A DNA stretch of 41,323 nucleotides from a virus. A program made the position numbers and the translations under genes. Of the stretch, positions 1,445 through 41,323 are shown piece by piece. Position 1 is the first letter of the stretch, and each line of letters opens with the position of its first letter. The stretch is taken from positions 1 to 41,323 of the IMG/VR virus record IMGVR_UViG_3300025314_000044, one strand, 5' to 3'. The notes under the pieces are model-generated. The model was not told the DNA's origin and did not search any database. It saw only the letters and a program-made list of their open reading frames with translations.

Positions 1445-2932
1445 GTGGCAGAACCACCAGACGGCGATATTCGCAATCCACCGCAGGCACTCGATGTGGA
1501 AGTCGCTGTCCTGGGGGCCATGATGCTGGCAGCCGGCGCCGCTCCTGTCGTGATGGGGATCCTCGAACCAACAGATTTCTACCGCCCCGCTCATCAGAAA
1601 ATCTACTCTGCCATGTACCGGCTGGCCGAACGATCGGCGCCGATCGACATCGCCACGGTCGCCAGTGAACTGGAGAAAACTGGAGACTTGCAGAAGTGCG
1701 GCGGGCCGAACGCGCTGATCGACATCGCCGCTTCGGTCTGCACGGCAGCCAGCGCACCCGCACACGCGAGGATTATCAAAGACAACGCCCTGTTGCGGCA
1801 ATTAATAGAACACGCCACTGATCTGGCCGAAGTCTGCCGGAATCACCCTGGCAACATCGCCGAAATGATCGGCCAAGCGCGGAACCGCCTGGATACTATC
1901 GCCTGTCGTGCTGAGCCTGGACGACAGCGCAATGAGGGAGTAACGCAGATGATGGACACGATTCAGCCTGAAGCCATCGACTGGATGTGGAAACCGTGGA
2001 TACCGCTGGGAAGCGTCTCCATTCTCGAAGGGGATCCCAAAGTAGGAAAATCCACCATCACCTTGCAGCTCGCGGCGATTGTCTCCCGCGGCTGGGGGTT
2101 CCCGGATGGCGACGGCAAGCCCGGCGCACCCTATGGACCCGCCAACGTGATCCTGATGAACTCCGAGGACCCGCTGGCAACCGTGTTGCGCCCCCGGCTG
2201 GATCATGCCGGAGCCGATTGCACCCGGATATTCGCGCTCACCGGTGTCCAATGGCGTAACGGCGCTGTCGACTCCGAGCGCATGGTCACGTTGCAGGACG
2301 TAGACACCATCGAACAAGCGATCATCAAATTTGACGCCAAACTGGTCATCATCGACCCCATTCAAGCATACTTTGGAGCTGGCGTCGATATGCACAGGGC
2401 CAACGAGACGCGGCCGGTCTTGGCAGGACTCGGAGCTATTGCCGAACGCCAGCGGTGCGCCGTGCTCCTGGTGAGACATTTGCGGAAAATGGGTGGATCC
2501 GCGACAGCCCACGGCCTGGGCGGCGTGGACATTTTCGGCTACGCCCGGTCGATACTCCTGGCATGGCGGGACCCCGACGACCCCAACCGCCGCATTCTCG
2601 CCCACACGGCCACCAATTTCGCCCGCGAGGCCAAGTCCCTGCTCTACACTCTCGATGATGGATTCCGCTGGTGCGGTGTCGATGACCGGACTGCCGAAGA
2701 CCTGGCCAACCAGCCACAGCAACGGGGAGAACGCAAGCCCGCCGCCGACCGAACCGCCGAATGGCTGCACTCCCTGTTGAGTGATGGCCAGATACCGGCC
2801 AATGAGGTCTATGCCAAAGCAGCCCGGGAGGGCTACGGAATTGGCAGTGTCAAAGCCGCGAAAACCATGCTTGGTGTTGAATCATGCAAGGTCGCTGCAA
2901 TCTGGGTCTGGAAACTCCCCAACGCTCAATAA
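1445..2932 (+). CDS. Replicative helicase: DnaB-like N-terminal domain fused to an AAA_25 (RepA-like) ATPase
   Basis: A 495-residue protein from a GTG at 1445. Residues about 12-125 (PQALDVEVAVLGAMML ... FYRPAHQKIYSAM) match the DnaB helicase N-terminal domain. Residues about 180-400 form a RecA-fold ATPase of the AAA_25/RepA type: Walker A GDPKVGKST at 196-204, Walker B in LVIIDPIQAYFG near 300, then a VRHLRK segment. Residues about 430-495 are a winged-helix-like tail (LLSDGQIPANEVY ... MLGVESCKVA). The likely role is 5'-3' unwinding at the phage fork, with the N-domain perhaps recruiting host primase. The usual DnaB C-terminal domain is replaced by AAA_25. It is the terminal gene of the early block, which holds the recombination genes, and converges with the leftward operon. 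Confidence 0.85.
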   Translation: MAEPPDGDIRNPPQALDVEVAVLGAMMLAAGAAPVVMGILEPTDFYRPAHQKIYSAMYRLAERSAPIDIATVASELEKTGDLQKCGGPNALIDIAASVCTAASAPAHARIIKDNALLRQLIEHATDLAEVCRNHPGNIAEMIGQARNRLDTIACRAEPGRQRNEGVTQMMDTIQPEAIDWMWKPWIPLGSVSILEGDPKVGKSTITLQLAAIVSRGWGFPDGDGKPGAPYGPANVILMNSEDPLATVLRPRLDHAGADCTRIFALTGVQWRNGAVDSERMVTLQDVDTIEQAIIKFDAKLVIIDPIQAYFGAGVDMHRANETRPVLAGLGAIAERQRCAVLLVRHLRKMGGSATAHGLGGVDIFGYARSILLAWRDPDDPNRRILAHTATNFAREAKSLLYTLDDGFRWCGVDDRTAEDLANQPQQRGERKPAADRTAEWLHSLLSDGQIPANEVYAKAAREGYGIGSVKAAKTMLGVESCKVAAIWVWKLPNAQ

Positions 2933-3055: not shown

Positions 3056-3151
3056 TCAGAAAATGAACCGCATCACCTGCCAGGCAACCCAGCCCCAGCA
3101 CAACAGACCGATCGCCACAACCCCCGTCTTCAACCACCGCGTAAATCTCAT
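3056..3151 (-). CDS. 31-residue single-pass membrane peptide
   Basis: Starting at the ATG at 3151, which overlaps the stop of the HTH gene (ATGA), the frame encodes a basic N-terminus (MRFTRWLK) followed by one hydrophobic segment (TGVVAIGLLCWGWVAWQVM). That layout is an inner-membrane peptide. A longer frame from 3253 exists, but its extra residues lie inside the HTH gene and look like a shadow. The function is unknown; last-gene membrane peptides in phage early operons are sometimes exclusion or host-takeover factors, which is only an analogy. Confidence 0.5.
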   Translation of the reverse strand: MRFTRWLKTGVVAIGLLCWGWVAWQVMRFIF

Positions 3152-3375
3152 TTCGTCTCTCCGTTCTGTTGTTCGATCTGTTGCATCCGACGCGCAACCG
3201 ACTCCCGCATCGCCCGATGTGGCTGACGTTTCCCCGACTCCCATGCCGCCCATGTTGCCGCTGTCACCCCGACCATAGCGGCGCAGATCTCCTGGCTGAT
3301 GAGCCAGTCAGGACGCATCCGCGGCAATCCCAGCCGAAACGCACGGCACTTCTCCGACCATGCTGGCCCGGTCAT
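3148..3375 (-). CDS. Small helix-turn-helix (Xre-like) DNA-binding protein
   Basis: A 75-residue protein whose middle (LISQEICAAMVGVTAATWAAWESGKRQP) has the pattern of an Xre/Cro-type helix-turn-helix: a helix, a short turn, then a recognition helix ending in W-E-S-G-K-R-x-P. The start ATG overlaps the upstream stop, and its own stop overlaps the next ATG. Targets could be the palindromes in the 5545-6400 control region or the early promoter; neither is shown. It is a candidate repressor or Cro-like regulator. Confidence 0.7.
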   Translation of the reverse strand: MTGPAWSEKCRAFRLGLPRMRPDWLISQEICAAMVGVTAATWAAWESGKRQPHRAMRESVARRMQQIEQQNGETK

Positions 3376-3682: not shown

Positions 3683-4171
3683 CTAGGCTGCCACTTGTTC
3701 CTGATTGAAAAGATCGACAGACTTTGCAACTGGTTTGGACTTGGCTTTCTCCGCTTTGAATGCCGACCTGGACTCCGCCGTCACCCCTTCCGTCTGGTCA
3801 ATCCCAAAAATTGACGCCAAAGCAAAGTGAAGATCCCCCGCATCAGTGGTTTGGGGTTTCCCTTCTTCCAATTTCGGTGCGCCAATCGGCACCCAAATGC
3901 CGTACCCATGCTCACCCTTGCGTACAATTCTGTCAGCCTTGCGCCACTGGTCGAAACCACCGACCACCGACGCCTTGCACCCCTGGTACATGACCATTAG
4001 TTGATTGTGGACCGACAATGCATGCCCCGCAATCGTGGTGATACTGGTACTGCCAATCGCTTGAGCTTGTTGTTCTGGTGTCATGCCACTGATGCGTTTT
4101 GCTAATTCGCGCATTCTCTGGCGTTTCTCTTGCGCCACTGCCCTTTGTTCGTCCGTAACATGCCGTCCCAT
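3683..4171 (-). CDS. ArdC-like N-terminal (ssDNA-binding) domain protein
   Basis: A 162-residue protein. The segment HNQLMVMY ... VGGFDQWRKADRIVRKGEHGYGIW is typical of the ArdC N-terminal domain (PF08401), a single-stranded-DNA-binding module of anti-restriction and phage/plasmid proteins. The metallopeptidase domain of full ArdC is absent; the tail ends in a polar, lysine-rich linker. The ATG at 4171 follows GGGAGAAG, so it was preferred to an upstream ATG at 4255 that would overlap the AAA+ gene. Next to a clamp-loader-like ATPase, a role in binding ssDNA during replication or protecting entering DNA is likely but inferred. Confidence 0.7.
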   Translation of the reverse strand: MGRHVTDEQRAVAQEKRQRMRELAKRISGMTPEQQAQAIGSTSITTIAGHALSVHNQLMVMYQGCKASVVGGFDQWRKADRIVRKGEHGYGIWVPIGAPKLEEGKPQTTDAGDLHFALASIFGIDQTEGVTAESRSAFKAEKAKSKPVAKSVDLFNQEQVAA

Positions 4172-4191
4172 GTCCGCTTCTCCCTTTCGGC

Positions 4192-4833
4192 CTACTCGCT
4201 TAACATTTCGCCCATTTCGATCCGACCTAAACACTCCCGAAAATTCTGACTGCAACGGTTGACAAGCTTGATGTATTCACTCTCTGGCCTACCGTCCAAA
4301 CCCTCCAGTTCCGCAATGGTTTTTAACCGCTTTGCAAACTTCGGAGTCACACCTTGACTCCCAAGACTCAGACACACGCACCGACTCGCAAATGGCCCAG
4401 CATCCATTTTTGTCTCCTCGAACAAATCATTCCCTTCGTGCGTGGTCGTGAAAATGACCACCGTGTTGCTCCGAAGCCCCTCTAAAACGTCCAGAAGAAT
4501 CTCGACAATCGGCTTGCTAAGCCCATGCGCTTCGTTTACAATCAACGCATAGCCAGGTTTCTCCCCCATAGCTACGTAAGCCCAATGATCCTGTAATTCC
4601 CGGAGACTGCCAACCGTCAACTGCCGACCGACTATCTCCCTGGTATTCCATTGATCGGCTACATGACTCGCAATGATTCGCGCCAGTGTGGTCTTGCCAA
4701 CACCGCTCTTGCCCGTGATCCAAAACGCCCGGCCTCCAAGATTCGACCGCATTCGCTCAATTACTGCAACCGACTTCTCTTGCCCGATTACTTCCGATAG
4801 ACTGGCCGGTCTGTACTTCTCGCTTAGATTCAT
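4192..4833 (-). CDS. Clamp-loader-like AAA+ ATPase
   Basis: A 213-residue protein opening MNLSEKYRPASLSEVIGQE, like RFC and DnaX clamp-loader subunits. Walker A is GKSGVGKTT (41-49). The Walker B region is ALIVNEAH (96-103), with Asn where Asp is expected. Sensor 1 lies in VVIFTTT and an SRC motif, the arginine-finger motif of clamp loaders, at 150-152. The C-terminal lid is short and there is no obvious collar domain. The ATG at 4833 follows GAGGGGAT and matches the family N-terminus; longer starts run into another gene. It may remodel the host clamp or help load the helicase. No phage clamp or polymerase was seen. Confidence 0.75.
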   Translation of the reverse strand: MNLSEKYRPASLSEVIGQEKSVAVIERMRSNLGGRAFWITGKSGVGKTTLARIIASHVADQWNTREIVGRQLTVGSLRELQDHWAYVAMGEKPGYALIVNEAHGLSKPIVEILLDVLEGLRSNTVVIFTTTHEGNDLFEETKMDAGPFASRCVCLSLGSQGVTPKFAKRLKTIAELEGLDGRPESEYIKLVNRCSQNFRECLGRIEMGEMLSE

Positions 4834-4876
4834 ATTGAACCTATCCCCTCGGCACGCCCCCCCCACGTTGGCGCCG

Positions 4877-5199: not shown

Positions 5200-5544
5200 T
5201 CAACCTAAATCTGTATGATTCTGGACAGCTACCCGAAAACGCCAATACCAATGCCAATGCACCTTGTAGGACTCTATCCCCAATAACGCCTTGGCTTTAC
5301 GTAATGGCTCCAAACGCAACCCCACCTTCGCGCCAGCCCCCACTATCTCCCGGAAAGACCGCCCACCATCGGCCAAATACACCCGCAAAAACGACTCCGC
5401 TCGAAACTGAACTGTCTGATGATCTGGCGCCGACGATAACCCATGCGCCGTATCCCAAGCTACAAGTTCCGCTTTCTGCCGCGCCCTGATCTCTGTGAAC
5501 TCCCGCAAATGCCTAAACTCTAATTCCTCACGTGTGGTTTCCAT
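5200..5544 (-). CDS. Stand-alone winged-helix-like protein resembling the helicase C-terminal tail
   Basis: A 114-residue protein, first gene of the leftward operon, with AGGAGG eight bases before the ATG. The C-terminal half (FLRVYLADGGRSFREIV ... KAKALLGIESYKV) aligns by eye with the tail of the helicase at 1445-2932 (LLSDGQIPANEVY ... AAKTMLGVESCKV). Both end in an aromatic strand (HWHWYWRF against AAIWVWKL). The N-terminal half is helical and charged. It is probably a DNA- or primer-binding winged helix. It could compete with or assist the helicase, or regulate the origin region beside it. Confidence 0.6.
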   Translation of the reverse strand: METTREELEFRHLREFTEIRARQKAELVAWDTAHGLSSAPDHQTVQFRAESFLRVYLADGGRSFREIVGAGAKVGLRLEPLRKAKALLGIESYKVHWHWYWRFRVAVQNHTDLG

Positions 5545-5708
5545 TTCGCATTCCTCCTAACCACAATACGAAAATACCCTGGAGAATGTTGGTATGTGAA
5601 GGTAGTAAGATCGCCAGACCCCCCACCACACACACGAAAATCATCCACCTTCTTGAACTCAGAGACCACAAAATAAGAAAACCAAACATCGTGTAAGTAT
5701 AAGAGAGA

Positions 5709-5735
5709 CAATAATATAATATATTAAAATTCGAT
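5709..5735. other. AT-rich tract, possible DNA unwinding element or promoter
   Basis: The stretch is nearly all A and T (alternating TAATATAATATATTAAAA), against a clearly GC-richer genome. It lies 165 bases before the first leftward gene. It could melt easily at an origin or supply -10 elements for the leftward promoter; no clear -35 box was found. Confidence 0.4.
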
Positions 5736-5800
5736 TCGCGAGGACGACTTCATGTAGATGGATGATTTCTCTCTGTTTGTGCCACCATCTGCCGATCTTC

Positions 5801-5820
5801 GTACGTTGATGTACGTTCAT
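5801..5820 (+). repeat. Tandem 10-bp repeat
   Basis: GTACGTTGAT is followed at once by GTACGTTCAT, differing at one base. Ten-base spacing puts both copies on one face of the helix, which suits cooperative protein binding. Confidence 0.55.
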
Positions 5821-6092
5821 TGTCTATGCACTAAAATTGTGCGCGAAACTGCACCAAGTGATTCATTTGCAACACCCATCCGTCATCCACGCGCGATCAA
5901 TAATATATTTACGTGATCAGCTCGAACCGACATGAGTCTATTCCGATAGAGTGCAGGTCCGCAGTGCCACCGAAAGACGACGCGATTAGGGCCTCTTGGG
6001 GGCACTTTCTCCACTGGTCCGGCCCCAGGAGTCGAACGCTGGCGCGAATCGCCGACCTTCCCTGCCAGGCGGCCCGAATGGGGGAATTGGCG

Positions 6093-6109
6093 GGGGCAGT
6101 CACTGCCCC
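6093..6109. promoter_or_regulatory. 17-bp palindromic operator candidate
   Basis: GGGGCAGT and ACTGCCCC are perfect inverted repeats around one central C. The length and odd-centred symmetry resemble Cro/repressor operators. It lies upstream of the iterons in the divergent region. The HTH proteins at 3148-3375 and 34757-34999 are possible binders. A related half-site (GGGGGCAC) lies near 5999. Confidence 0.5.
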
Positions 6110-6151
6110 TATTTCGCTGCCGCAGGCTGTGGTTGATCATGGTTGTGCCAA

Positions 6152-6216
6152 AAACCATCGTCAAACCATCGTCAAACCATCGTCAAACCATCGTCAAACC
6201 ATCGTCAAACCAGATC
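6152..6216 (+). repeat. Iterons: five exact 11-bp repeats plus a partial copy
   Basis: AAACCATCGTC occurs five times head to tail (6152, 6163, 6174, 6185, 6196), followed by a degenerate copy AAACCAGATC. An 11-bp period is close to one helical turn, so a protein would bind all copies on one face. Such arrays are typical of iteron origins and of some autoregulated promoters. It ends 39 bases before the terminator stem at 6255. Confidence 0.85.
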
Positions 6217-6254
6217 AAAACAACAGCGCTGGCATGGGGAATAGGGGCATGGTG

Positions 6255-6284
6255 TCCCAGGGCGACAATCTGGGAGTCTTTTTT
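6255..6284 (+). terminator. Rho-independent terminator upstream of the late genes
   Basis: TCCCAG (6255-6260) pairs with CTGGGA (6270-6275) around a nine-base loop, followed by GTC and six T's (6279-6284). It points toward the late genes, so some transcript must start upstream in the control region. It may end a short leader RNA, insulate the late genes, or act as an antitermination-controlled switch. Confidence 0.65.
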
Positions 6285-6376
6285 CCATTGTCCGGTAACA
6301 CGATCCCTACGAGGGAGAGGGGGGCATATATAAATCGGGTAAGGAATCCCTTGTTTCGGTTGTTTGCGGAAATTTC

Positions 6377-6405
6377 TTGACAGTTAAGGGTGGTATACGT
6401 ATGGA
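6377..6405 (+). promoter_or_regulatory. Possible promoter before the small terminase
   Basis: A perfect -35 box TTGACA lies at 6377-6382. Seventeen bases later is TATGGA (6400-6405), a weak -10 that overlaps the chosen start codon. TATACG at 6394-6399 is too close for a normal spacer. An alternative -10, TATAAA at 6329-6334, has no good -35. The assignment is tentative. Confidence 0.35.
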
Positions 6406-6883
6406 TTTTGGCATGTCGAGAGTGGGGAAGCGTTCAGGATCGGGTGGTGATCTGGTTTTAGTTCCGCTGAGTGATGTTCGTCCGAGTATAAGTCGGAACG
6501 ACGTATTGGCGGGGGAGTTAATCCGTGGGGGGATAGATGCTCGGAGGGTAGCGCAGGAGTTAGAGCGGGCGTTAAGTGCTGAGTATTTGGTAAAGCGTTG
6601 GGAGAAGGTGGGGGGTTCTTGGATTGCGGTGGAGGTAATGCAGCCTGACTGGCGGACGCGGATGTTGGCGATAGAGAAGATCATCAAGGTTCAGGGGTGG
6701 GAGTATTTAGTGGAGCGTCTTCCTGAGGGGTCAGTTCCGCGTGATTTGCTGGTAATTTACAAGGAGTTACGGGTAAGTGGGTTGAGTGTTGAGGAGTTGC
6801 AGGAGAGGCATCGGCGGGATGTTGGGGCGGGGTTGGTGGAGGCAGTTGTGGAGGTCGTGGGGGGTGTTGGTGGGAGTTCCTAA
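6401..6883 (+). CDS. Terminase small subunit (putative)
   Basis: A 160-residue protein just upstream of, and overlapping, the large terminase gene. The middle (DARRVAQELERALSAEYLVKR ... DWRTRMLAIEKIIKVQGW) has the helix-rich, DNA-recognition look of small terminase subunits, including the DWxTR-LA-E-I-K pattern. It would bind the packaging site and regulate the large subunit. The ATG at 6401 follows AAGGGTGG; a TTG at 6377 is less likely. The coding strand is very rich in G and T, unlike the genes after 8300. Confidence 0.65.
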   Translation: MDFGMSRVGKRSGSGGDLVLVPLSDVRPSISRNDVLAGELIRGGIDARRVAQELERALSAEYLVKRWEKVGGSWIAVEVMQPDWRTRMLAIEKIIKVQGWEYLVERLPEGSVPRDLLVIYKELRVSGLSVEELQERHRRDVGAGLVEAVVEVVGGVGGSS

Positions 6884-8297
6884 CCGTTCATTGTTGGAGG
6901 CTGCGATTGTTGCGGACGAGTTACGTCGTCGTTTGCGGACGGATGGTGGGGAGATGTTTGAGGCGCAGGGGTATCAGGCGGCGTTTTTTGAGCACACGTC
7001 GAAGCGGGTATTGGCTCATGGTGGGAACCGGAGTGGAAAGACGCGTTGTTGTGCGCAGTATATTTACGAGAAGTTAGTTGGGAAGCGTGGTGGGGTTGGG
7101 CCTTTTCATTGGCGTGCGTGTGGGAGTGGTTGGGAGGAGCATGTTGAGAAGGTTTTGGTTCCGATGTTTGAGCGGATCATTCCGCGGCGGTTTTTGGAGG
7201 GGGACAAGTTCAATTATTCAAGTCGGAGTCATATGTTATTTTTCAAGGATGGGAGTGATTTGGAGTTTATGAGTTTTGATCAGGATCCGGAGAAGGGGGC
7301 GGGTCGGCCGTTGCACGGGGTGTGGTTGGACGAGAGTTATGCGTGCAGCAAGCGGTTTCGGGATCAGTGTTTAGCGCGGTTGCTGGACTATCACGGGGAG
7401 ATGATAGCGAGTTTAACGCCGGAGGATGGGGATGCGAGTTGGGAGATTGAGTGGTACGAGAAGGCGCGGAGCGGGGATCCTGACTACCAGAGTTTTCGAT
7501 TTCCGACGCGTGAGAACAAGTACATCAGCAAGGAGGGAATTGCGCAGTTGATCAGGGATTGCGGGGACGACGAGGTTCAGATTGCGATTCGTTTAGACGG
7601 GGATTTTGCGAGTGTGGGGGGAAAGATTTATCCGAGTTTGAAGGCATTGTTTCACGTGAAACATTCGCACGAGGTGGGGGTTTCGGAGGATTGGGTGAGA
7701 TTCATTGCGATTGATCCTGGGGTATCAAAGGCTCATGCTTTGCTGTGGGGGGCGGTGGGGCCGGGGAACCACATTCACTTTTACCGGGAGTTGTCGATGG
7801 GGGGGGAGATTGGGCCGCTTTGCGACACAATCCGGAGATTTTCGGCTTTAGACGGTCCCATCTTCAATTTTTTTCTTGACGGGCACTGGGATTGGGACAA
7901 TCGTGTAGCGGCGATGGGGGATTCGCACGAGCCGTTGAACATTGAGCGGGAGTTTATCAAGCATGGGATACCAGTTGTCAAAGCTCCGAGGGACATTCGT
8001 AATTGGATCGGGATTGATCAGGTTCGGCAGCGGTTGCGTCCGGACCCGATTACGCACATGCCGCAGATCACTTTCGATCCGGAGTGTCAGCAGACGTGGT
8101 GGGAGATGACGCATTATAGCCAGATCAGGCCTGGGAAGAACGATCCCAGCCGGCACAACCCGCGGATTCGCAAGGTGGACGATGATTTCTGTGACTGTGT
8201 GCGGATTGCGATCACGTCCAACCCTGTTTTCATGGGTGGGTGGGACGGTAGTCTGTCGTCCAATGTTGTTATTGGGGAATATGGACTGGGATTCTAA
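6870..8297 (+). CDS. terL: Terminase large subunit
   Basis: A 475-residue packaging motor. Walker A is GGNRSGKT (51-58), Walker B is GVWLDE (ending about 155), and a coupling-motif-like ASLTPE follows. The C-terminal RNase H-fold nuclease has FIAIDPGVS (Asp about 282), FFLDGHWDWD and a final DDDFCDCVRIA acidic motif. It pumps DNA through the portal and cuts it at head filling. The GTG at 6870 is preferred, overlapping the small subunit by 14 bases; an ATG at 6786 would overlap it by about 100. It shares the strongly G/T-rich codon use (GAG, TTG, GGG, CGG) of the small subunit, which stops near its end. Confidence 0.9.
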   Translation: MGVPNRSLLEAAIVADELRRRLRTDGGEMFEAQGYQAAFFEHTSKRVLAHGGNRSGKTRCCAQYIYEKLVGKRGGVGPFHWRACGSGWEEHVEKVLVPMFERIIPRRFLEGDKFNYSSRSHMLFFKDGSDLEFMSFDQDPEKGAGRPLHGVWLDESYACSKRFRDQCLARLLDYHGEMIASLTPEDGDASWEIEWYEKARSGDPDYQSFRFPTRENKYISKEGIAQLIRDCGDDEVQIAIRLDGDFASVGGKIYPSLKALFHVKHSHEVGVSEDWVRFIAIDPGVSKAHALLWGAVGPGNHIHFYRELSMGGEIGPLCDTIRRFSALDGPIFNFFLDGHWDWDNRVAAMGDSHEPLNIEREFIKHGIPVVKAPRDIRNWIGIDQVRQRLRPDPITHMPQITFDPECQQTWWEMTHYSQIRPGKNDPSRHNPRIRKVDDDFCDCVRIAITSNPVFMGGWDGSLSSNVVIGEYGLGF

Positions 8298-8472
8298 CAT
8301 AATTGGCTGGATCAGATCCATCTTAGGGATGGCGATCGGTTGGGTTGGTGTGCCGGTGTGCCTTATTGCGGGATCGGCTATTGCGGTCAGCAGCTCGCTG
8401 CTGGGCATAATTATTACGTCCTGCGCTTTATTGTGCTTTCTGGTTGCGTGTTGGCTTTTGGAATGGCCATGA
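8281..8472 (+). CDS. Small two-segment membrane protein
   Basis: A 63-residue protein overlapping the end of the terminase gene. It has two hydrophobic segments (SILGMAIGWVGVPVCLIAG and LLGIIITSCALLCFLVACWLL) separated by a short turn, the layout of a class II holin. It sits between terminase and portal, away from the lysis cluster at 27.2 kb, so a holin role is uncertain. It could be an accessory membrane protein of assembly or DNA entry. The ribosome site (TTGGGGAAT) is weak. Confidence 0.5.
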   Translation: MDWDSNIIGWIRSILGMAIGWVGVPVCLIAGSAIAVSSSLLGIIITSCALLCFLVACWLLEWP

Positions 8473-8484
8473 AAAGAGAGACTG

Positions 8485-8748
8485 ATGACTAATGGCATAA
8501 TCATCAACATCGAACTTCCCGATTGGCCCCCATCGGTACTTTGTTTGCGCGATACCGGAGAATGGTGGGTAGAACAATCTAACATCGGGAAGAATTTGAA
8601 TCCTCAAATCGTCCGGCTGGCCCTTTCCGATGCAATGATAATCTTGGATAAGGCCTTTCAATCTATTGTCAAATGCCGTTTGGGATTTGGTACAACTGCG
8701 TATATGAATCATCTGAAGGTGGAACCAGAAGGCGAATCTGATGACTGA
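8485..8748 (+). CDS. Small hypothetical protein
   Basis: An 87-residue acidic protein between the small membrane protein and the portal. The ATG at 8485 follows AAAAGAGAG. The sequence (NIELPDWPPSVLCLRDTGEWWVEQ) suggests a beta-rich start and a helical middle. Its stop region overlaps the portal start (ATGACTGA). No family recognised. Confidence 0.6.
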   Translation: MTNGIIINIELPDWPPSVLCLRDTGEWWVEQSNIGKNLNPQIVRLALSDAMIILDKAFQSIVKCRLGFGTTAYMNHLKVEPEGESDD

Positions 8749-10705
8749 AACGCCGCTTTACCAGGGCGAGCCTGTTACTTGGGACTCACGGGACACCAAA
8801 GAGCGTGCCCGTAAGATGGTCGTTTGGGCGCTCTCTGTTTCCTTTGATTACTATCGCAAGCTTCGCCGCAATTTCAACGAATACTTCGATTTGTACACGA
8901 ATCAGCCGTTGAAGTTGCGGCAGACCAACCGTATTCGTTCCAATGTGCCGTCGGGCCGGGTTCCGGAGATGGTCGACACCTATGTTGCCGATCTCCAGAA
9001 CCAGATTATGAGTAAGCGTCCCGTTGTAGGGGTCATTCCCCAGGAAACCGGCGACATCGAAACGGCTGCTGCTCTTGAACAGTTGCTTCAATACGACATG
9101 GACAATTGGACCGAAGACATGGGGCCGTTGCCGGCTGTTAATATGACGTTGTTACAGGCGTGTCTTTGGGGATCAAGTCCCTCGAAGACAGTCTGGACCC
9201 AGCGCGTCAGGTCCATTCCCATGACCGGAATTCTTGATCCTGAAACAGGGAAGGAACTGACGCAACTTTCCATCGGTTTTCAGGGTCCGATTGCCGAACC
9301 TCTGTTTCTTTATGACGTTCATCCCCATCCTCAGAAAGTTTGGCCGGAGGATCACTATCCTGTTGTGCACGTGTCGTTCAAGTCCTACGATGAACTGCTG
9401 GCGCTCAAAGGAATCGTCTATGACGATGATGTGGACCTGATCCCGGATCGCAAAGACATGCCGCTTCTTCTTGGCGATGCTGCCGATTTGTATATTGGTG
9501 CTTGTGGTGATGTTTTTGAGCGTGCTGACCAGCGTGTCAGACTGGGATGGTCAGATGATTCCCGGCTCGAACCGGATGGAATCATGGTTGCCGAGTGCGA
9601 GTGTATGTTCCGGCCCAAGGTGGACTGGACGGATACGGCGGGCAGGAAGCATAAGGGCGACCAGCCTGTCCGGACGATCATCACTGTTGCCAATGGTCTT
9701 GTCATTCGCGTCTCTCCTGGGCCGTTACCGGAGGGGATGTCGGTCTATCAGAACGCAAAGATCAGTCATCTTCCTGGCCAGTGGTACGGTATCGGGCTGG
9801 TACAGAAAAACCGGCCGCAGGTTCACGTCGAGGACACGATTCTCAACATGGTCCTTCAAAACCTTGCCCAGACAGTCAACAAACCCAAGATCGTGATTCC
9901 GCAGTATCTCGAATCCGGCCAGTCCCTTGACGATCAGCCTGGCGGGGTGATTCGCGCCAAGATGGGTGCTGATGTGCGCAACATCATGCGTGAGATTCCC
10001 ATGTCGTCCATTTGGAACGATGCGGCGGGAATCCTGTCGTACATTGCTGGCCGGGAAGAAGGCGTTGGCGGCGCGACGGAATTGAAACAGGGGCGTGTCC
10101 CGGATCAAAGCCAGACGGCCACCGCATCGAATATCGCTATTCGTCAGTCCTCAATCCGTTTTGCCTTAGCCATGTCGTGGATCGGTGCAACCTTTTTTCG
10201 CTCTGGGGCGCGCAAAGCATACTACTACAACCGGGATTATCTTCAGACTCCCTTTGCGGCTCGCGTTCTTGGCGAAGAAGGACAGAATCAATGGTTCAAG
10301 ATTCAGAAGACCGATTTTATCAACAATGTCGATTTTGTGTTCCTTGGTCCGCAGGAAATGGAAAGCGAGAATCTGCGGATTGCCCAGTTGCAGAACTTCC
10401 TCAAGGTGCTCTCGCCCCTGATGCAGGCTCCGTGGACGGAGGCGCCCATGAAGGAAACCATCATTCTCCTGGCCGACAAATTCAAGATCCCGAACATCGA
10501 ACGTCTCAAACAGCAAATTGGATATGGCGCCCAACCAGCGCCCGCTCCGCAGCCCCAAGGGGCATCTCCAGGTGGGGGTGCCCCCGCCCCTGTCGGCCGC
10601 GCCGACCGCAGACTGGGTTCAGGCGGGCCGCCAACCGATTTCTCCAACATTGCCAAGTCTCTTGGCGGCATGCTGGCCGGCGCAACAAACCCAGGACCAC
10701 GTTAG
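8741..10705 (+). CDS. Portal protein
   Basis: A 654-residue protein directly after terminase, of the right size for a podovirus-type portal. The N-terminus (YRKLRRNFNEYFDLYTNQPLKLRQ) and the PEMVDTYVADLQNQI segment fit the portal wing and clip regions. A long helical stretch around residues 460-560 could be the stem and crown. The tail (residues about 600-654) is rich in Pro, Ala and Gly and probably disordered. It forms the dodecameric ring for DNA entry and exit and nucleates head assembly. Codon use switches to CTG/GAA-rich here, unlike the terminase genes. Confidence 0.8.
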   Translation: MTETPLYQGEPVTWDSRDTKERARKMVVWALSVSFDYYRKLRRNFNEYFDLYTNQPLKLRQTNRIRSNVPSGRVPEMVDTYVADLQNQIMSKRPVVGVIPQETGDIETAAALEQLLQYDMDNWTEDMGPLPAVNMTLLQACLWGSSPSKTVWTQRVRSIPMTGILDPETGKELTQLSIGFQGPIAEPLFLYDVHPHPQKVWPEDHYPVVHVSFKSYDELLALKGIVYDDDVDLIPDRKDMPLLLGDAADLYIGACGDVFERADQRVRLGWSDDSRLEPDGIMVAECECMFRPKVDWTDTAGRKHKGDQPVRTIITVANGLVIRVSPGPLPEGMSVYQNAKISHLPGQWYGIGLVQKNRPQVHVEDTILNMVLQNLAQTVNKPKIVIPQYLESGQSLDDQPGGVIRAKMGADVRNIMREIPMSSIWNDAAGILSYIAGREEGVGGATELKQGRVPDQSQTATASNIAIRQSSIRFALAMSWIGATFFRSGARKAYYYNRDYLQTPFAARVLGEEGQNQWFKIQKTDFINNVDFVFLGPQEMESENLRIAQLQNFLKVLSPLMQAPWTEAPMKETIILLADKFKIPNIERLKQQIGYGAQPAPAPQPQGASPGGGAPAPVGRADRRLGSGGPPTDFSNIAKSLGGMLAGATNPGPR

Positions 10706-10714
10706 GAGACTACC

Positions 10715-11041
10715 ATGCTGGATGCCGAAACCCTCGAAGCCATTGAAAAGGAAAGGCTGTTTCTTGCCTCTAAGGCGCCAGACGAGATTGCCACTCTGTC
10801 CAAGACTCTGGAGCGGGAGTTCGTGGCGCTTCAAGGGATCAGGGGAGAGCGCGAGCGTGCCGATGCCATTCACCGCTGGGGCGGCCTGAACCGCCTCCAT
10901 GCCCTGCGTGCCATCCTGGAAGGATTCCAACCTACGCCCGAACCCGAACCTGCGCCCGAACCCGAACCTACGCCCGAACCCGAACCTACGCCCGAACCCG
11001 AACCAAAGTCTGAATCCAAAGGAACCAAGCATGGATCGTAA
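10715..11041 (+). CDS. Small protein with a Pro-Glu repeat tail
   Basis: A 108-residue protein starting at 10715 after AGGAG. The first 70 residues are helical and charged. The rest is PTPEPEPAPEPEP-type repeat encoded by an 18-bp tandem repeat. Such rigid, acidic extended tails act as spacers or periplasm-spanning arms in some bacterial proteins; here the role is unknown. The stop overlaps the glycosyltransferase-like start. Confidence 0.6.
   Translation: MLDAETLEAIEKERLFLASKAPDEIATLSKTLEREFVALQGIRGERERADAIHRWGGLNRLHALRAILEGFQPTPEPEPAPEPEPTPEPEPTPEPEPKSESKGTKHGS
10931..11002 (+). repeat. Four 18-bp tandem repeats (PEPEPT-coding)
   Basis: CCTACGCCCGAACCCGAA is repeated four times head to tail; the second copy has G for A at its fourth base. 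It keeps the reading frame, so copy-number change by slippage would only alter tail length. Confidence 0.9.
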
Positions 11042-23478: not shown

Positions 23479-26400
23479 ATGCCAACTCGTGTTGATCCAT
23501 ACGATTTCTCAGATATGCCTGTGTCCATCTATGATTTTAAGGACATGCCTCGCGGGTTGCCGTCTTCGTCTCGTCTGAACGATCCGGTTGGACGAGCATT
23601 GATCGAAAGCGGGTTGATGACGGCGGAAGACGTTGACCCTTTCAATGCGGCTGCATTTACGCCAGAGCCAGCATCAAGTACGTCGGTTGCGGGAGTGAGG
23701 ACAGAATCGCCAGCGGTTGTACCAAGCACAGAAACGCCGCAAGAAAACCCATTCCAGATGTTCATGCAGAAGATGAGCGAACTGAATCTGAATCCGCATG
23801 TTGCACGATCGGGGCTTGCGGGTCCGGTGGCGGCACTGGGCACTGCCGCAGAAGTGGTGTCTGGCACAGTGGGGCAATTCAGGCAAAAGGCCACTGCCGA
23901 TATGTCTCTGGCCGAAACCGGATTTGGACTGATAAAGAACGCCGCGGCGGGCCTGATGGATATGTACCCGGCGCTGGCCCAACTTCCAGAGGCTATGCTG
24001 CGAGATCCATCGGGCACGATGGAGGCATTGCTGGAGTTTGTGCCCCATCAGGCAATGCTTCTCTGGAAAGCATCAGTTCCGGCAGGGACAAAAGAGGAGC
24101 AGGAACAAAAGCGCTTGGCCCAGAACGCTCTCTTTGAAGACCCATTGGGGGCGGTTTTCGCAGCGCTAATCGTAGGTGGCTTGACCCATGTTTCAGTCAA
24201 AACCATCAAAAAGTACAAGGCGGCATCGGCAATAGCGAAGTTTGAAGTAGCCGAAGCGAAAGCCTTTGCCGAAGCCGAAGCGAAAGCCTTTGCCGAAGCC
24301 GAAGCGAAAGCCTTTGCCGAAGCCGAAGCGAAAGCCTTTGCCGAAGCTACTGGGACAGACATCTACGGTGATATTGCTAAATCAAGGGCAGAACCCGCCC
24401 CCCCCCCCAATGTGCCTACTAGGAGCTTGACGACCAGTGTAGAGACGCCTCCGCCGTCTGGCCAGCCAATTACAGACCCATCTCGTTTGATTGGCATGGC
24501 TGGAACGAAGGGCGAGGTGGCTGGGCCTGTAGGGGAGGGGCAGTTCTTCACGAAACCGAAGCTCTATGGCCGGGGCCGGATCCCCGAAGAAAGGGCCGTG
24601 GAGAGTGCTCAGTACGGTGGGCCGGAGTTTTCGGAGACGGCAGGTCCGCTTGGTGGCGAATCCCGTTTTTTTGAAGGCGATGTACCCCCGCGGACGATGG
24701 GAACCGCTCCTGAAGGCAATTTTATGGATTTCATTGCCCGGTTGAAGGGGGCGAACGGCTATGATGTTACTTCGGGGAAACCACCGAAACCACCGCGTTA
24801 TCAGCCGTTTCTCAGGTCTGGGCAGTTTACTGAATCGAAGATTTTGGATGAGAAGTTCAAGGCGGCAAATGAACCGTCGATTTTGGAATCGGCGCATCCG
24901 CATACTGTTGTTCCAGAAATTTCCGCTACGCCTGCTGGTGTTGCCGAAATTGATGTTCAGGGATGGATGAAAAGGCGAATCGCCAGACAACAGCGTATCT
25001 TTGCGGTTATGACTCAGTTTGGCAAGCGTCTGACGATTCCAGAGGCAAAGGCGGCGGTTGCGGAATTGCAGGCAATGAACATGGAGGCTAACCAGTACGC
25101 TGGTAATATCGGTGAGGATTTTCGGGGGGTTGGTTCTTTGTTACAGCGCCCTGGACCTGGTCCCGCTTTGCAACGGAAATGGACTGGCACCAAAGTGTTC
25201 ACTATGGAAGAATGGATGGCCCGGCCGGAAGTGCGGGCATTGTACATCAAGATGGGGCAAGCACTTGAAGATGCTGGTGTGACCATGTTGAAGGCCGATG
25301 GTACGACTGTCCCCTTCAAAATGAGTGAAGATTTCCTTCGCACTGGTCCCCAGCGCTGGAAGCTGGACATCCTTGAGAAGATTTGGGATGATGTTGGTGG
25401 GGCTGTGGACGCCGCACGAGGCGCAGCTAAGACCCAAGGTCAGAGTGGGAACATTGCTTGGATCGACAATTACCTGAACAAAACGTCTGAAGACCTCAAG
25501 TCGATGAAGCAATCTACGCAAGATGCTGTGAAGGCTCTCATTGACGCGAAGGCAGCAAAAACGACAGGGCAAGCGTTGAGAATGCTGGCGGATGAATCAT
25601 CGAATCAGATGTTCCGGCGAACGGGTGTTGAGTTTCCGCGCACAAGGAGAATGCCCGACTATTTTCTTGAGACAAATCCTGCCATTCTTACGGGTCGTTA
25701 CATTGGAGAGTGGTCGAGGACGTTAGCTGAGGTCAATCACTTTGGACCTGCACGAGGGCGTTTGGCAGACATCATTGCCCGTGTTGAAAAAGCTGATCCC
25801 AGAGAAGGGGCTATGCTTCGGGACCTGTCTGATGTGATGATGGGAGTTGTGGATCGCAGCCATCCAATCAGCTATGGGGCTCATAAGGCGTCAAGGATTT
25901 GGGCTAATGCGACTTATGGTGTGAAGATTGGTGCGGGCTGGGCACCAATGATTCAGGTGACACAACCGTTGATTTCGATAATCCCGGATGCGGGGCTGGT
26001 CCGCGTAGCACAGGGAACTTGGAAAGCCCTGCACCCAGTAGAGCGTGCCTTGCTACGGAGAACTGGAACAGTTGGGACATCGGCTTTCCGCAAGATGATG
26101 GGCAGCTATGGTTCTGCCGGGCCGTGGTCTTACATCCCGACGACTCAGTTTTTTAGCTTTGCAAACCGGGCCCTGGATTATGTGACTGGTGCGACTGGCG
26201 AGGTCTTTGCCCGTGATCTCCACCGAATCGCCAATCTTTCCGATGATGTGCTGGCAACTCCAATTGGCAAACTGCGCCGGGATTGGGCACGAACGAAATT
26301 GCAAGAGCGATTTGGGATGGATTACACCAAGGCTATCGAACAGTCAGATTTTATCAAGATAACTCAGAAATATGCCAATGAGTTACAACTCCATCCCGAT

Positions 26401-35091: not shown

Positions 35092-35164
35092 ACCCCCGGA
35101 GCTCACATGGAAGAGCAGCGGCTTTCTAAGCCGATGGCAGCGGGTTCGATTCCCACCGGGGGTT
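35092..35164 (+). tRNA. tRNA-Arg (anticodon UCU)
   Basis: A full cloverleaf can be drawn. The acceptor is ACCCCCG with CGGGGGT. The D-arm is GCTC/GAGC with loop ACATGGAA. The anticodon stem CGGC/GCCG (outer pair G-A mismatched) carries loop TTTCTAA, giving anticodon TCT. The variable loop is TGGCA and the T-arm is GCGGG-TTCGATT-CCCAC with one mismatch. The discriminator is T and no CCA is encoded. It decodes AGA/AGG, likely rare in this GC-leaning host and phage. Confidence 0.85.
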
Positions 35165-35182
35165 CAGTTTTCGTCCTTCGCA

Positions 35183-41182: not shown

Positions 41183-41323
41183 ATGCGCCGAAAACGATTG
41201 TGAAGGGCGGGAAGGTGCTGACAGTCATTGGTGGGCCATTCCCCGGCAAGATCGGCGACCCGAACAAAAAGCCGAATCCATGCGGACATTTCACGCTGAC
41301 GGTCGTCTGTACGTGCAAAGTCC
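41179..41323 (+). CDS. Small Cys/His-rich, zinc-ribbon-like protein (5' part; continues at 2)
   Basis: The ATG at 41179 overlaps the previous stop. The frame (MNAPKTIVKGGKVLTVIGG) runs off the right edge in the same frame as the gene entering at position 2. This links the window's ends and gives about 83 residues in all. Confidence 0.75.
   Translation, partial: MNAPKTIVKGGKVLTVIGGPFPGKIGDPNKKPNPCGHFTLTVVCTCKV
41184..41323. repeat. Right copy of the 140-bp terminal direct repeat
   Basis: Identical to 1-140 except at 41186 (C for A) and 41197 (A for C). Both differences fall in the first 14 bases, outside the exact 126-bp block. Confidence 0.9.

Follow-up and report, generated by a model that had tools for sequence, protein, structure and literature searches.

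A candidate phage replication origin beside a stand-alone relative of the helicase winged helix

Introduction

The Rep helicases of Staphylococcus aureus pathogenicity islands (SaPI) and the Cch2 helicases of staphylococcal cassette chromosomes (SCC) bind iterons through a C-terminal domain, and their origins lie beside the helicase gene (PMC7581432). Origins of iteron plasmids are built from direct repeats, an AT-rich unwinding element and a winged-helix initiator (PMC4980987). Direct repeats are also found at packaging sites, as in the pac region of phage SPP1, where sets of them span the promoters and the start of the small terminase gene (PMC4737164). Here we analyse the virus record IMGVR_UViG_3300025314_000044, whose 41,323 bases are called the window throughout, and in particular the non-coding gap between its divergent genes at 5545-6400. 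We put the probability that 5545-6230 is the replication origin of this phage at roughly two in three. In the best-supported reading of the sequence, this origin would be recognised by a winged helix that occurs twice, once on the helicase and once as a free protein. For most phages neither origin nor initiator is known, and a helicase-tail paralogue encoded as a stand-alone gene, together with the gap adjoining it, could offer a simple route from sequence to both.

Results

The features on which the origin reading depends are the following.

5200-5544, minus strand: stand-alone winged-helix protein of 114 residues, paralogous to the C-terminal domain of the helicase and proposed to bind the origin
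1445-2932, plus strand: replicative helicase with a DnaB N-terminal domain (PF00772, 6e-29), an AAA_25 ATPase (PF13481, 5e-35) and a predicted C-terminal winged helix
5581-5661, plus strand: left arm of a long imperfect palindrome centred on 5703; contains AAATCATC, equal to 7 of the 8 bases of the iteron core AAACCATC
5745-5825, minus strand: right arm of the same palindrome; holds a 10-bp repeat (5801-5820) and a mirror copy of AAATCATC (5761-5768, minus strand)
5670-5730, no strand: AT-rich tract, weakest duplex of the genome by nearest-neighbour stability, proposed DNA unwinding element
6152-6212, plus strand: tandem array of 5.5 copies of AAACCATCGTC, proposed iterons (Tandem Repeats Finder score 122, 100% match)

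The window ends repeat each other (1-140 and 41184-41323; 126 exact bases and, at the left tip, a 14-base stretch with 2 mismatches), and an independent contig (L002) crosses the junction, with an overlap of the record ends of about 126-140 bases. Hence the map of the genome is circular, with 41,183 bp. The AT-rich tract named in an earlier interpretation of this DNA, the sequence-only reading, is real, and nowhere on the circle is the duplex less stable than at 5670-5730: the weakest stretches of 30, 60 and 100 bp all fall at about 5640-5740. The weakest 60-mer (at 5670) has a value of -1.066 against a genome mean of -1.479 with a standard deviation of 0.08, which places it 5.2 standard deviations off the mean, and the next best value is -1.211. 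Two imperfect inverted repeats given by the repeat finder (I1 and I2) have the common centre 5703. Scored as one palindrome of about 81+81 bp (positions 42-122 from the centre), they are complementary at 51 of 81 positions, or 63%, compared with a genome mean of 25% (standard deviation 5%) and with 50% at the second-best centre anywhere in the genome. When the whole window was shuffled five times by mononucleotide, at most 49% was reached, and none of 300 dinucleotide shuffles of the region reached 63% (maximum 47%). The centre of the weak tract lies 3.5 bp from that of the palindrome, which starts about 37 bp upstream of the 5200-5544 start codon. The position of the weakest duplex at the centre of a long palindrome, and the paralogy of the 5200-5544 product with the helicase tail described below, are two stronger features that the sequence-only reading missed; the 10-bp tandem repeat which it did report is present in two copies at 5801-5820, but these are imperfect (9/10 match) and belong to the right arm of the palindrome.

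The array comprises five exact tandem copies of AAACCATCGTC, as had been claimed, plus a 6-base partial copy, and its 11-bp unit is about one helical turn. Two near-identical contigs (L002 and L004) have 4.5 copies, exactly one unit fewer than the window, so the array changes by whole units. Because such a change is not a multiple of three, it frameshifts the only long open reading frame (ORF) across the array; this 155-residue ORF (5913-6380) was rejected as a gene on account of the frameshift in relatives and of a non-coding codon score. Codon scores of ORFs in the gap are negative or near zero, except for a weak 63-residue ORF (5520-5711; 0.077, under nearly all real genes). Codon scores and frameshift evidence thus bear out the description of the gap as non-coding, and it is the sole large one between divergent genes. 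With one ambiguous base, the iteron core reads AAAYCATC and occurs 14 times in the window, 5 times in the array and twice, as mirror images, in the palindrome arms. Since the arms mirror each other, the arm sites count as one independent coincidence, which is suggestive only. Two further tandem arrays of more than three clean copies exist in the window, both in frame within long ORFs of the virion region (10929-11004, 18 bp x 4.2; 24249-24347, 24 bp x 4.1, exact).

Searches of Pfam, PHROGs and NCBIfam gave no convincing family for the 5200-5544 product. This protein aligns with the last ~75 residues of the phage's own helicase (BLASTP E 3e-8 for the pair), with a score of 88 where 2000 shuffles gave a maximum of 68. 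AlphaFold predicts a winged helix at residues 42-103, mostly with a predicted local distance difference test value >90, from an alignment of three rows only. The first two viral matches in Foldseek are AAA-domain phage proteins, and structural matches in the PDB are generic winged-helix repressors with weak E-values. In a winged-helix tree, the window pair groups with its helicase relative on a long branch (support 84/91), and a lineage-specific duplication is likely, although not proven. The helicase is not a canonical DnaB: the PF00772 N-terminal domain is present, the ATPase is of the AAA_25 kind and no match to the DnaB C-terminal domain was reported. Its C-terminal domain occurs also in L094 and in Mycobacterium phage Rando14, and this predicted winged helix, common to several phages, would provide the C-terminal DNA-binding domain of a SaPI/SCC-type helicase. 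A Rep-family initiator, which would be expected near an iteron origin, was not matched by any neighbouring gene in Pfam, PHROGs or NCBIfam; the candidate is instead the helicase-tail winged helix. The earlier guess that a neighbour might be a new initiator has gained strength for 5200-5544 through its paralogy with the helicase tail, and has not for 3148-3375, which shows a weak helix-turn-helix match and no link to the helicase.

A second case is found in Kratiovirus, a group of mycobacteriophages unrelated to this phage. The Foldseek list for 5200-5544 includes an uncharacterised 129-residue protein of Rando14, which by its length is gene 90, and Rando14 also carries a helicase relative. Gene 90 aligns with the C-terminus of the phage's own primase/helicase, gene 66, with a score of 163 (shuffles at most 55). 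Searching with gene 90 gave 32 Kratiovirus records, each with two matching places, and searching with the helicase tail gave 33, among which only Boilgate was without the second place. Nine genomes were read, and in all of them the 0.7-1.0 kb after gene 90 is largely or wholly free of annotated genes. These gaps contain 4-6 copies of CCAGTCRGGTCA (at most 2 mismatches) in opposing orientations, compared with 0-3 in the rest of the loci read. As these gaps are where the motif was first noticed, its enrichment is no independent test; the location of the weak tract does provide one. In the whole Rando14 genome (59,925 bp), no 60-mer is weaker than the one at 58721, inside the gap beside gene 90, and in each of the other eight genomes the weakest 60-mer of the 4.3-4.5 kb that were read also falls in the gap. 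Inverted arms score higher than shuffles in 5 of the 6 Kratiovirus gaps tested, with Edugator as the exception. The Rando14 gap also has, besides the inverted motif copies, a 16-bp tandem repeat of 2.9 copies (L098, 24836-24881).

The GC-skew minimum, proposed as a check by the sequence-only reading, lies at 6224 on the linear map and, after detrending, at 6230 on the circle, 18 bp past the array and at the gap, where gene direction reverses too. The origin reading thus withstands the refutation that the sequence-only reading had set for it, a skew minimum situated elsewhere. Third-codon-position GC skew of the coding strand is highest in the two genes that flank the gap (0.69 in 5200-5544 and 0.79 in 6401-6883), is 0.51 in the large terminase gene and is near zero for several kilobases past 8.5 kb. 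This pattern is compatible with an origin, but also with strong divergent transcription because gene direction reverses in the same gap. Across 6290-8300, the putative small and the large terminase genes show an unusually strong coding-strand bias of G>C (all codon positions) and T>A, fading by 8.5 kb.

Other features of the gap and its surroundings are listed below.

3148-3375, minus strand: small helix-turn-helix protein, weak matches (HTH_31, 0.003; phrog_2328, 6e-5)
3683-4174, minus strand: protein with an ArdC N-terminal domain (PF08401, 3e-6)
4192-4839, minus strand: clamp-loader-like AAA+ ATPase in the winged-helix operon (phrog_5846, 1.5e-25; dnaX N-terminal, 5e-15)
6093-6109, no strand: perfect 8+1+8 palindrome GGGGCAGTCACTGCCCC, seen in the sequence
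6255-6285, plus strand: terminator-like hairpin with a T run, past the array and ahead of the terminase genes (2 found in the region against 1.5 expected by chance)
6401-6883, plus strand: putative small terminase subunit, by position only
6930-8297, plus strand: large terminase subunit (phrog_2, 1e-25; PF03237, 1e-4)

The leftward operon at 3.1-5.5 kb encodes the helix-turn-helix, ArdC-N and clamp-loader-like proteins, which family matches show to be as previously described, and the 5200-5544 product. RecE-, RecT- and RusA-like genes lie with the DnaB-N/AAA_25 helicase between 37.8 kb and 2.9 kb, across the junction, and rightward virion genes (terminase, portal and major head protein) start at 6.4 kb. 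Among the proteins tested, none was recognised as a DNA polymerase. The 4192-4839 product is a possible helicase loader or clamp loader; it is clamp-loader-like, yet neither a polymerase nor a sliding clamp was recognised among the same proteins, and it may load the helicase instead. That the right-hand genes encode a putative small terminase and a large terminase was overlooked in the sequence-only reading. The array ends about 190 bp before the 6401-6883 gene, whose product had no match in PHROGs and other family searches, and its single-sequence structure model was of low confidence and too poor for use. A tRNA-Arg (tct) gene lies at 35092-35165 amid small ORFs.

Rfam and tRNA searches of the gap found no RNA, and its RNA folding was unremarkable (z about -1 to -1.4). 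DnaA boxes of the form TTATNCACA were absent from the window and the relaxed form TTNTNCACA from 5400-6500, contrary to what a DnaA-dependent origin would have. There was no enrichment of integration host factor sites or GATC, and promoter-like matches in the region were at chance level only. Searching IMG/VR for the iteron returned near-identical contigs only, and the 80 loci of distant terminase relatives shared no array, a few having other tandem repeats upstream in no pattern. The repeats, whose conservation in relatives had been suggested as a check, are conserved in near-identical contigs; no wider relatives suited to this check were found, and Kratiovirus, with the same arrangement, has other repeats. 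Two contigs of a near-identical virus (L004 and L091, IMGVR_UViG_3300025030) break from about 6515 to 9271, in the terminase and early portal region, and 6515 is close to the array. Genome-contig scans found no host or prophage.

Discussion

The computed array, weak duplex, palindrome, skew minimum and winged-helix paralogy lend support to the origin reading first made from the sequence, and the recurrence in Kratiovirus was likewise computed. As in iteron-type origins, several direct repeats (5.5 copies of 11 bp) lie in non-coding DNA and an AT-rich element suited to unwinding is found at 5670-5730, though about 420 bp from the array. By analogy, we propose a helicase-initiator type of origin resembling the SaPI/SCC systems, in which the origin-reading domain would have been duplicated as a separate protein.

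We infer binding and all later steps of the following model. The free winged helix (5200-5544) and the helicase-tail domain (1445-2932) would bind to the 11-bp repeats as well as to related sites within the palindrome arms, and the palindrome centre, where the DNA of the genome is weakest, would melt. Helicase rings would be loaded at this site in opposite directions, perhaps together with the clamp-loader-like AAA+ protein that the winged-helix operon encodes, and a palindromic centre would suit two helicases departing in this way. Host primase and polymerase would then take over, since the proteins tested included no recognisable phage polymerase. A precedent exists for the helicase-borne half of the model, because SaPI Rep and SCC Cch2 recognise iterons through their C-terminal domain, and the free copy is its new element. 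Plasmid Rep proteins control their own operons, and in iteron plasmids an autoregulatory inverted repeat lies near the initiator gene, to which the window possibly holds a parallel. Since the palindrome begins ~37 bp upstream of its start codon, the 5200-5544 winged helix may also regulate its own operon.

More tentatively, and as somewhat less likely than not, we suggest a recurrent class of phage origin in which the origin-reading winged helix of the helicase is duplicated as a free protein and encoded beside a palindromic origin centred on the weakest DNA of the genome, both copies reading the same sites, and which at least two phage lineages would have evolved independently. If so, the free copy may recruit the helicase, compete with it or position it. 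By sequence comparison, the arrangement of stand-alone winged helix and gap amounts to two cases and no general rule.

Several observations weigh against the origin reading. The region is present in only three contigs, near-identical to one another and including that of the window; no relatives suited to testing conservation of the array were found, and a 56%-identical helicase relative ends before the gap region. The distance of about 420 bp between array and weak tract is large for a classical iteron origin, the terminase genes directly to the right of the gap make a packaging site possible, and the skew minimum is confounded by the reversal of gene direction. In four other phages with a related helicase tail, Desulfofustis LS06, Manatee ctuI7215, Phinky and Boilgate (the last two being part genomes), no stand-alone winged helix was found in the sequence searched, and the Kratiovirus gaps are themselves candidate origins only.

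The main rival is a packaging site (pac or cosB-like), with the array bound by the small terminase encoded downstream and the palindrome perhaps in another role. The putative small and large terminase genes do come after the array, much as direct-repeat sets lie at the small terminase gene in the SPP1 pac site (PMC4737164), and a circular map spanned by an independent contig is expected for permuted headful genomes. However, palindrome and weak duplex adjoin the replication operon and not the terminase, and the neighbouring winged helix is paralogous to the helicase tail. No contig ends within 5545-6400, though one does at 6515, and the 69 distant relatives whose sequence reaches upstream of the terminase have no array in common. 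Packaging is also less likely in Rando14, because its motifs lie >1.1 kb from the record end whereas cluster K genomes have defined cohesive ends (PMC3203893). Taken together, we consider a packaging site unlikely; both functions could coexist, with the array for packaging and the palindrome for replication.

Still less likely, in our judgement, is a region devoted to transcription control only, with palindrome and repeats as operators of divergent operons. The gap does divide two such operons, the palindrome starts close to the winged-helix start codon (~37 bp), the 11-bp spacing would set sites on one face of the helix and a terminator-like hairpin is present at 6255-6285. Operators alone leave aside that the weakest duplex of the genome sits at the palindrome centre and that the winged helix is related to the helicase; promoter-like matches stay at chance level, and the Kratiovirus gap, being downstream of the stand-alone gene, cannot be its promoter. 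Remnants of a mobile element or a chance microsatellite-like expansion would be in line with the varying copy number of the array, but none of the proteins tested was recognised as a transposase or integrase, palindrome, AT-rich tract and array occur together in one 650-bp gap, and the same arrangement is seen in another phage group, all of which makes this explanation very improbable.

Iterons, unwinding elements and helicases with a DNA-binding tail are known kinds of part, and in the open-licence papers searched we found no description of a reader domain that is split or duplicated next to a palindromic origin. As at the SPP1 pac site, direct repeats in the window lie upstream of what is, by position only, a small terminase gene; unlike it, the window has a helicase-type winged helix and an AT-rich palindrome on the other side. 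With iteron plasmids of the RK2, F and R6K types it shares direct repeats, an AT-rich element and a winged helix (here a candidate initiator). It differs from them in having no Rep-family initiator or DnaA box, a single winged helix related to a helicase tail, an array about 420 bp from the weak tract and an 11-bp unit. In common with SaPI Rep and SCC Cch2, there is a helicase with a predicted C-terminal DNA-binding domain, and a non-coding region of short repeats near the replication genes (PMC7581432). Here, however, the helicase is of the DnaB-N/AAA_25 kind, the winged helix is also encoded separately beside the repeats, and binding to the repeats is proposed by analogy.

The gap by gene 90 of Kratiovirus (cluster K type) differs from the window in repeat sequence, in gene orientation to the gap, in helicase architecture (annotated as primase/polymerase) and in having no long direct array. 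In both, a separately encoded winged helix is a paralogue of the tail of that phage's primase or helicase, inverted repeats surround the weakest DNA and the non-coding gap is large. The Kratiovirus cases infect the laboratory host Mycobacterium smegmatis, and therefore the idea is directly testable there.
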